A stretch of 64,000 nucleotides of DNA, taken from IMG/VR virus record IMGVR_UViG_3300047320_000285, positions 186,001 through 250,000 of that record; one strand, written 5' to 3'. This stretch comes from a virus. The position numbers were made by a program, and so were the translations under genes. The notes below the pieces were generated by a model, which saw nothing but the letters and a program-made list of their open reading frames with translations, ran no database searches and was not told where the DNA came from. Positions 35,590 through 36,263 of this stretch are shown one piece after another; position 1 is the first letter of the stretch; every line of letters starts with the position of its first letter.

Positions 35590-36263
35590 CTATGGGGCTG
35601 CGCCTTGTGTCGCTCGCCGCCGCGATTTGCACCGGCTTCGCACACGCGTTTAACGCGAGTTCGTGGAAGGTGGTCGCGGCGTCGACGGCATGGAACAGGG
35701 CTCAGCGTGACGAACCCGGACCTGGAATCGCTTCTGGGCAAACCGGGATCAGCCGGGGTCGCCAGTCAAGTGATGGCTGGCGCTTCGCACAACGCGTCCC
35801 GAGGAGGACTGTGGCACGGGTTAAGGGTATCCGTCAGCCGCAGTTAGCTTGACTCGGCGCGATGGTCTCGCGAAGAACCCAACTACCTCTGGGGCTGCAC
35901 TGCCGAACCGAGCCGCGTCGGGGGAGCATCAGGTGTGGCGCCCAGCTGGGCACGTTGAGCTAACTCTCTTTCCACCAGAGAGTGATGAAACATGAAATGG
36001 CCTGCCACCGCCGGTGAGCAGACGGACGAAGCACTTCAGGGTTAGATGGGACCGTAAGCCGCGTGACGTATTAGCCCATGGGACTAGCGTACGGGAGCCG
36101 AGAGCCGCCGGAATCGCCTGCAAGGCACGAAGTCCAAGGTATCCGCTACTTAGATGAGACCTAGTCCGCCCCCGGTTTCCGGGTCAGCCGCTAGGAGATT
36201 CGTAAGGGCGGGCCTTCAAGAACCTCTTGCTTCGGCAGGGGGTAGTCTTGAAGGCCCGTTTTT
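35590..36263 (+). ncRNA. Large structured noncoding RNA candidate 1 (about 650 nt)
   Basis: A gene-free, GC-rich stretch full of potential helices and closed by a strong terminator. Helices seen include CGCCGCGA (35618-35625) with TCGCGGCG (35674-35681), enclosing a CGCG-TTTAA-CGCG hairpin. Others are CGCGA/TCGCG (35858-35872), ACTCTCT/AGAGAGT (35963-35983), GGACTAG (36081-36087) with CTAGTCC (36161-36167), and CCCGG-TTT-CCGGG (36171-36183). It matches no RNA class I know. The GGACTAG/CTAGTCC pair recalls group I intron P7, but there is no split gene around it. The start is uncertain; it may be read from the tubulin-like gene's promoter. Confidence 0.6.
36210..36263 (+). terminator. Strong terminator of ncRNA candidate 1
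   Basis: A stem of about 20 bp with a TTCG loop: GGGCCTTCAAGA at the left base, TCTTGAAGGCCC at the right base, inner CCTCTTGC/GCAGGGGG, then GTTTTTC. Confidence 0.8.

Follow-up and report, generated by a model that had tools for sequence, protein, structure and literature searches.

A small open reading frame and a predicted structured RNA directly downstream of phuZ in FLC9-like jumbo phages and a divergent relative

The stretch of DNA analysed here (64,000 nucleotides, hereafter ‘the window’) lies within a viral record of 253,740 bases and contains, as the initial annotation had proposed, a gene for a tubulin-like protein, which a PHROG match to ‘tubulin PhuZ’ now names and which ends at position 35581 (Table 1). 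PhuZ is the tubulin of phiKZ-like, nucleus-forming phages, and the closest named relative of the window's protein is that of Burkholderia phage FLC9. An interval of 697 nt (35582–36278), the subject of this report, separates phuZ from a nucleoside 2-deoxyribosyltransferase-like gene (start 36279); the element within it is a small ORF plus an RNA, the latter being, in our judgement from sequence, a lineage-specific structured RNA. The deoxyribosyltransferase gene seems to be an insertion in the lineage of the window, because the gene that follows the RNA in the relatives described below (group A) resembles window positions 36804–37235. Several consecutive genes of ~140–200 amino acids that lie 3' of the RNA in the window (36804–40309) resemble a divergent paralogous family. 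Elsewhere, a second stretch of ~600 nt without an evident gene (29141–29760) is AT-richer and carries inverted repeats (GGGAGAGTTCCCCCAGAACTCTCCC) together with repeated TTGTTACAAT/TTTGTTACC elements; it is perhaps an origin or promoter region.

Table 1. Positions of features at the phuZ locus and of related hairpins elsewhere (window coordinates unless a contig is named)
Feature	Position	Strand	Evidence or remark
phuZ, tubulin-like spindle protein	34577–35581	+	PHROG 4733 ‘tubulin PhuZ’, E=4.2e-78; 47% identity with FLC9 homolog
Small ORF, 86 codons	35592–35852	+	Codons 1–40 (35592–35711) look coding, codons 41–86 do not
Hairpin, counterpart of group-A UAAGGG hairpin	35809–35843	+	CUGUGGC-A-CGGGU-UAAGGGU-AUCCG-U-CA-GCCGCAG
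Group-A profile match	35817–36024	+	nhmmer E=1.7e-7; next match E=4.9
Predicted RNA domains II and III (GCCGAACCG...GGGGG-GCAUCAGG arm; CUGCCACCGCCGGUGAGCAG hairpin)	35884–36030	+	R1 E=8.5e-4
Best-conserved hairpin, CUGCCACCGCCGGUGAGCAG	36002–36021	+	IMG/VR pattern: phuZ-linked loci only, plus one coding chance match
3' domain	36022–36205	+	Little sequence conservation; contains 7-bp pair 36081–36087/36161–36167
Terminator, hairpin of 20+ bp then T-run	36206–36264	+	Sequence, MFE, z -5.3
Hairpin followed by CTTTATGCC(G), sites	11985, 15193/15221, 31579/31601, 36814, 43899/43935, 28096, 34026, 55160, 59807		
B/C-type hairpin without phuZ, L064	13220–13246	reverse	
B/C-type hairpin without phuZ, L066	6559–6585		
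B/C-type hairpin without phuZ, L068	1987–2013	reverse	

The initial annotation had described this interval as gene-free, rich in long- and short-range helices and closed by a 20-bp terminator, and that observation holds in part: the locus and the terminator stand, whilst the helices read from the single sequence, and the absence of a gene, do not. The terminator hairpin, at the end of the interval, is its sole strongly stable 200-nt stretch; with it removed, stability in 200-nt windows is no greater than that of dinucleotide shuffles (mean z +0.23 for six windows inside the interval, against -0.68 for 114 windows outside it), and the folding z of -2.6 for the whole 697 nt is probably owed largely to the terminator. 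Complementary pairs of seven bp within 120 nt, terminator excluded, likewise number 7 against 5.4 expected, and because such pairs occur at chance level the GGACTAG/CTAGTCC pair, which the initial annotation likened to a group I P7 helix while noting that no exons flank it, is unremarkable; no counterpart to it is evident in the alignment of the relatives. A self-splicing intron or ribozyme remnant of group I-like type, to which that pair had pointed, is thus already largely refuted and scarcely credible, given that no Rfam group I intron match appears at E<=10 in the window or FLC9, and that the RNA ends in a terminator rather than an exon. As a side observation, many gene ends in the window have a hairpin with CTTTATGCC(G) after it, and at convergent ends this sequence flanks a single hairpin on both strands; TTTATGCCG also occurs 3' of terminators in FLC9, FLC8, L037 and L062. 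It has the look of a terminator signature specific to the lineage, and is missing from the terminator that closes the RNA in the window.

Support for a structured RNA comes from relatives of the window. At the same place after phuZ, 770 nt of FLC9 are free of annotated genes, and FLC9 together with a number of jumbo phages from IMG/VR makes up group A (FLC9, L011, L007/L027, L022–L024, L008/L025 and L009/L010/L026/L028), whose members share a syntenic, unannotated interval of ~700 nt directly 3' of the gene, the intervals being mutually 70–99% identical. With an alignment of PhuZ proteins as query, 29 loci were recovered; a scan with a single PhuZ sequence gave no matches. The window and FLC9 intervals can be aligned at short blocks such as CTGCCACCRCCGGTGNGCAG, and this block, used as a pattern over IMG/VR, recovers six contigs, five with phuZ directly upstream and the sixth a coding chance match. 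A match in the window is also returned by an nhmmer profile built from seven group-A sequences with the window left out (Table 1). The covariance model R1 (group-A domains II and III, window left out) has a single match in the 64 kb, although domain II of the window fits it with several non-standard pairs, and the lone window match of R2 (domain I) is the UAAGGG hairpin, which is weak (E=3.9). By these comparisons the window is shown to carry a homolog of the structured RNA predicted for FLC9-like phages, present as one copy per phage record searched, with no second genomic copy found in those records. Across the 3' domain the homology is positional only; its group-A counterpart is a covarying multi-helix domain (helices 13–23). 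An ordinary spacer or decayed gene with a terminator, the RNA being functional only in FLC9-like phages, would suit a window that matches group A mainly across 35817–36030 and folds no better than shuffles; we consider this unlikely, in that motifs and hairpin are retained at ~47% PhuZ identity, a match of E=1e-7 is unexpected for decay, and the window's terminator is intact.

The initial annotation had suggested looking for covariation in the post-phuZ intervals of related phages, and there it is found. An RNAalifold consensus on the seven group-A sequences contains 168 supported pairs, of which 37 show compensatory changes on both sides (shuffled alignments: 19.2±2.6), and reaches a covariation score of 0.242 (0.141±0.007); none of 500 shuffles was as high, though these counts are not readable as probabilities, because the sequences are related and perhaps five are independent. 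Controls with slid partners gave 2–7 two-sided pairs, and 97.5% of cells are paired in the covariation alignment. The predicted domain I is closed by a ten-pair stem (AUCGGUCC/GGACCGAU), inside which lie a hairpin that covaries and a long arm with GC-nnnn-UAAGGG-nnnn-GU as its cap; in the inner stem of this UAAGGG hairpin four of six pairs show two-sided changes in group A and three of six in group B (see below). Domain II is a long arm enclosing GCCGAACCG...GGGGGUGCAU, and domain III the CUGCCACC hairpin; beyond it come the large 3' domain, another arm and then the terminator, in which the RNAs of both group A and the window end. Covariation thus shows a predicted RNA of about 500–550 nt to be conserved by structure in FLC9-like phages, with a multi-helix structure that exceeds the needs of a terminator or a stabilising 3' hairpin, and it is because these relatives covary that the structure in the window is credible.

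Two further sets of phages carry unrelated-looking sequence at the same place after phuZ: group B (L030/L061 (Caballeronia arationis contig), L031–L034 and L046) and group C (L035, L037, L038 and L062 (Sulfuriferula MAG)). Group B covaries independently (14 two-sided pairs against 6.8±1.8 shuffled), and both groups carry a hairpin in which an ACC/AUGGA-type internal loop is combined with a six-pair stem closed by G-U and a G-rich loop that contains AA. L037 deviates from this pattern, whose architecture resembles that of group A. The PhuZ proteins of the window and of groups A, B and C fall into one clade (100/99 support), which also contains six phages without such an interval. A single family defined by covariance model was tried and rejected, as neither R1 nor R2 matches any B or C interval; kinship rests on position, PhuZ clade and common hairpin architecture, and a single origin is plausible rather than shown. 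In L037 the RNA interval runs straight into same-direction tRNA-Thr and tRNA-Ser genes, so that the RNA there may lie in a transcript requiring processing. The gene next after the RNA in group B (L030/L032/L033) is, judged by eye, acyl-carrier-protein-like, as is a gene at 14374–14615 of the window.

The RNA is absent from many phiKZ-like phages (phiKZ, PhiPA3, 201phi2-1, Goslar and FLC8), and since these manage without it, we take it to be an accessory of the PhuZ clade described above and not essential to PhuZ function generally. Long post-phuZ intervals also occur in group D (L043–L045, L047 and L048) and in L041, whose PhuZ proteins lie outside the clade; in the group D jumbo phages the intervals span ~300–700 nt and have a T-run terminator at the end. 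A B/C-type hairpin (AACCGC-nnn-GAAnnGG-nnn-GUAUGGA) was also seen in three contigs where no phuZ was found (Table 1), the regions in L064 and L066 being nearly identical across ~30 nt; these may represent a wider RNA module, or chance.

The 5' end of the element has a different character. In group A the small ORF starts ~45 nt 3' of phuZ, with a dN/dS of 0.22 over codons 1–40 and ~0.7 beyond; the ratio falls to 0.058 over codons 21–40 (YHDFSWFPSIQAAADRKVHR) and stands at 0.92 over codons 41–60, where third-position preference is gone, such that the coding signal ends where RNA structure begins (~codon 40). By these ratios codons 1–40 evolve as protein, and selection afterwards is not clear. 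The window ORF switches likewise in its codon usage, scoring +0.18 for codons 1–40 and -0.40 for the remainder (95% of genes lie above -0.05, and 95% of off-frame readings below -0.15). The description of the interval as gene-free thus needs amending for 35592–35711, which looks protein-coding, and conserved codons, which the initial annotation had named as an argument against an RNA, occur in the first ~120 nt and not in the rest. Similarity between the window and group-A peptides is suggestive (global alignment, p 0.002–0.13), and neither has a Pfam or PHROG match. In groups B and C a +1-frame ORF overlapping phuZ was considered; its frame is open, but a dN/dS of 0.8–1.0 leaves coding unsupported.

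The 5' strand of helix 4 overlaps codons ~38–42 of the small ORF, and because domain I thus starts inside the ORF, translation and folding must compete. RNAIII-type bifunctional RNAs combine a small ORF and a long structured RNA in one transcript; compared by general description only, the phuZ-linked element joins the same two parts, but its ORF occupies the 5' end, next to phuZ. A type I toxin-like mRNA, in which a long structured message for a small tryptophan-/arginine-rich peptide is met by an antisense RNA, would account for a group-A ORF (MFGHVRSLARWW...YHDFSWFPSIQAAAERKVHRSS) under protein-level selection with structured RNA 3' of it; we hold it to be very unlikely, seeing that the peptide, besides matching no Pfam or PHROG family, is not a typical hydrophobic one-helix toxin, and that groups B and C keep the RNA while their ORF is unsupported.

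Searches against known families were negative: Rfam 15 gave no match in the window at gathering score or E<=10, nor in FLC9, the other group-A/B/C loci or L035/L046 (E<=5); the ROOL and GOLLD covariance models had none in the window, FLC9 or the group-A/B/C loci; and ARAGORN recognised no tRNA or tmRNA in the window interval. The open literature, searched with most subscription papers and preprints outside its scope, yielded no account of a structured RNA linked to phuZ. The initial annotation's interpretation is therefore upheld in its core, that of a large structured RNA with a terminator and no known signature, for which the covariation of homologous intervals now speaks; its hint at a group I intron comes down to a chance complementarity, and membership in GOLLD or ROOL is not supported. 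ROOL and GOLLD are nonetheless the nearest systems in kind. ROOL is a large (~600 nt), multi-domain structured phage RNA often found near tRNAs (PMC12286853), and the phuZ-linked RNA is also large, multi-domain and phage-encoded, with two tRNAs directly 3' of it in L037, but is tied to phuZ in a jumbo-phage clade, not to tRNA islands or prophages, and begins inside a small ORF. GOLLD is similarly large and ornate, with one part better conserved and one variable; its best-conserved part, however, is 3' rather than 5'-central, and its neighbourhood is another. The UTR-derived non-coding RNAs found by Grad-seq in phiKZ (~100 and ~180 nt, two hairpins each) also come from a nucleus-forming jumbo phage, but from another locus, since the phuZ–PHIKZ040 gap in phiKZ is only 54 nt, which excludes a link to the ‘p40 5' UTR’ ncRNA (PMC8545117).

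Synthesising these observations, we tentatively lean towards a stable RNA that is released from the phuZ operon transcript and acts as a ribonucleoprotein or structural RNA. The operon would end in a bipartite transcript, comprising the small ORF (~40 coding codons), then ~500 nt of structured RNA and the terminator, and presumably co-transcribed with phuZ, given that no separate promoter was recognised. We infer that the 3' part is processed, acts in trans and persists whilst PhuZ is active, working through its fold either as the core of an RNA–protein particle or in a structural capacity comparable to that of ROOL and GOLLD; the small protein may, at a guess, be its partner. We prefer this model on account of the size and multi-domain build of the structure, of the terminator with which it closes in group A and the window, and of the two tRNAs in L037 with which it has direction, and perhaps a transcript, in common. 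Every instance of the RNA found sits directly after phuZ, a linkage that equally suits a cis-acting 3' UTR and, along with the thermodynamically ordinary fold of the window, counts against a stable RNA. Such a UTR of the phuZ–sORF mRNA, controlling stability, translation of the sORF or location of the message relative to nucleus and spindle, is a serious possibility, nearly as likely as the stable RNA because the linkage is so strict: all instances of the RNA-only pattern directly follow phuZ, save one coding chance match, and both the want of a recognised promoter and the competition between translation and folding would fit. A covarying, multi-domain structure of this size with highly conserved loops is, however, unusual for a UTR, and the same-direction tRNAs that follow it in L037 also tell against this reading.

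More speculatively still, and with little confidence, nucleus-forming jumbo phages might possess a hitherto undescribed class of large bifunctional RNA, which arose once and spread through a single PhuZ clade (the window and groups A, B and C). Its RNA and small protein would together make up a particle attached to the tubulin spindle or the phage nucleus, with a role such as the positioning of phage mRNA or of the nucleus itself.

Finally, since FLC9 has been isolated and can be grown on a laboratory host, Burkholderia glumae, expression, structure and deletion of the RNA are directly testable. Phages have few large structured RNAs, most of them without an assigned function; the phuZ-linked RNA, previously unlisted, belongs to no Rfam family and is conserved by structure, and the gene that it adjoins encodes part of a cytoskeletal system studied in depth, in phages whose transcription and translation take place apart.
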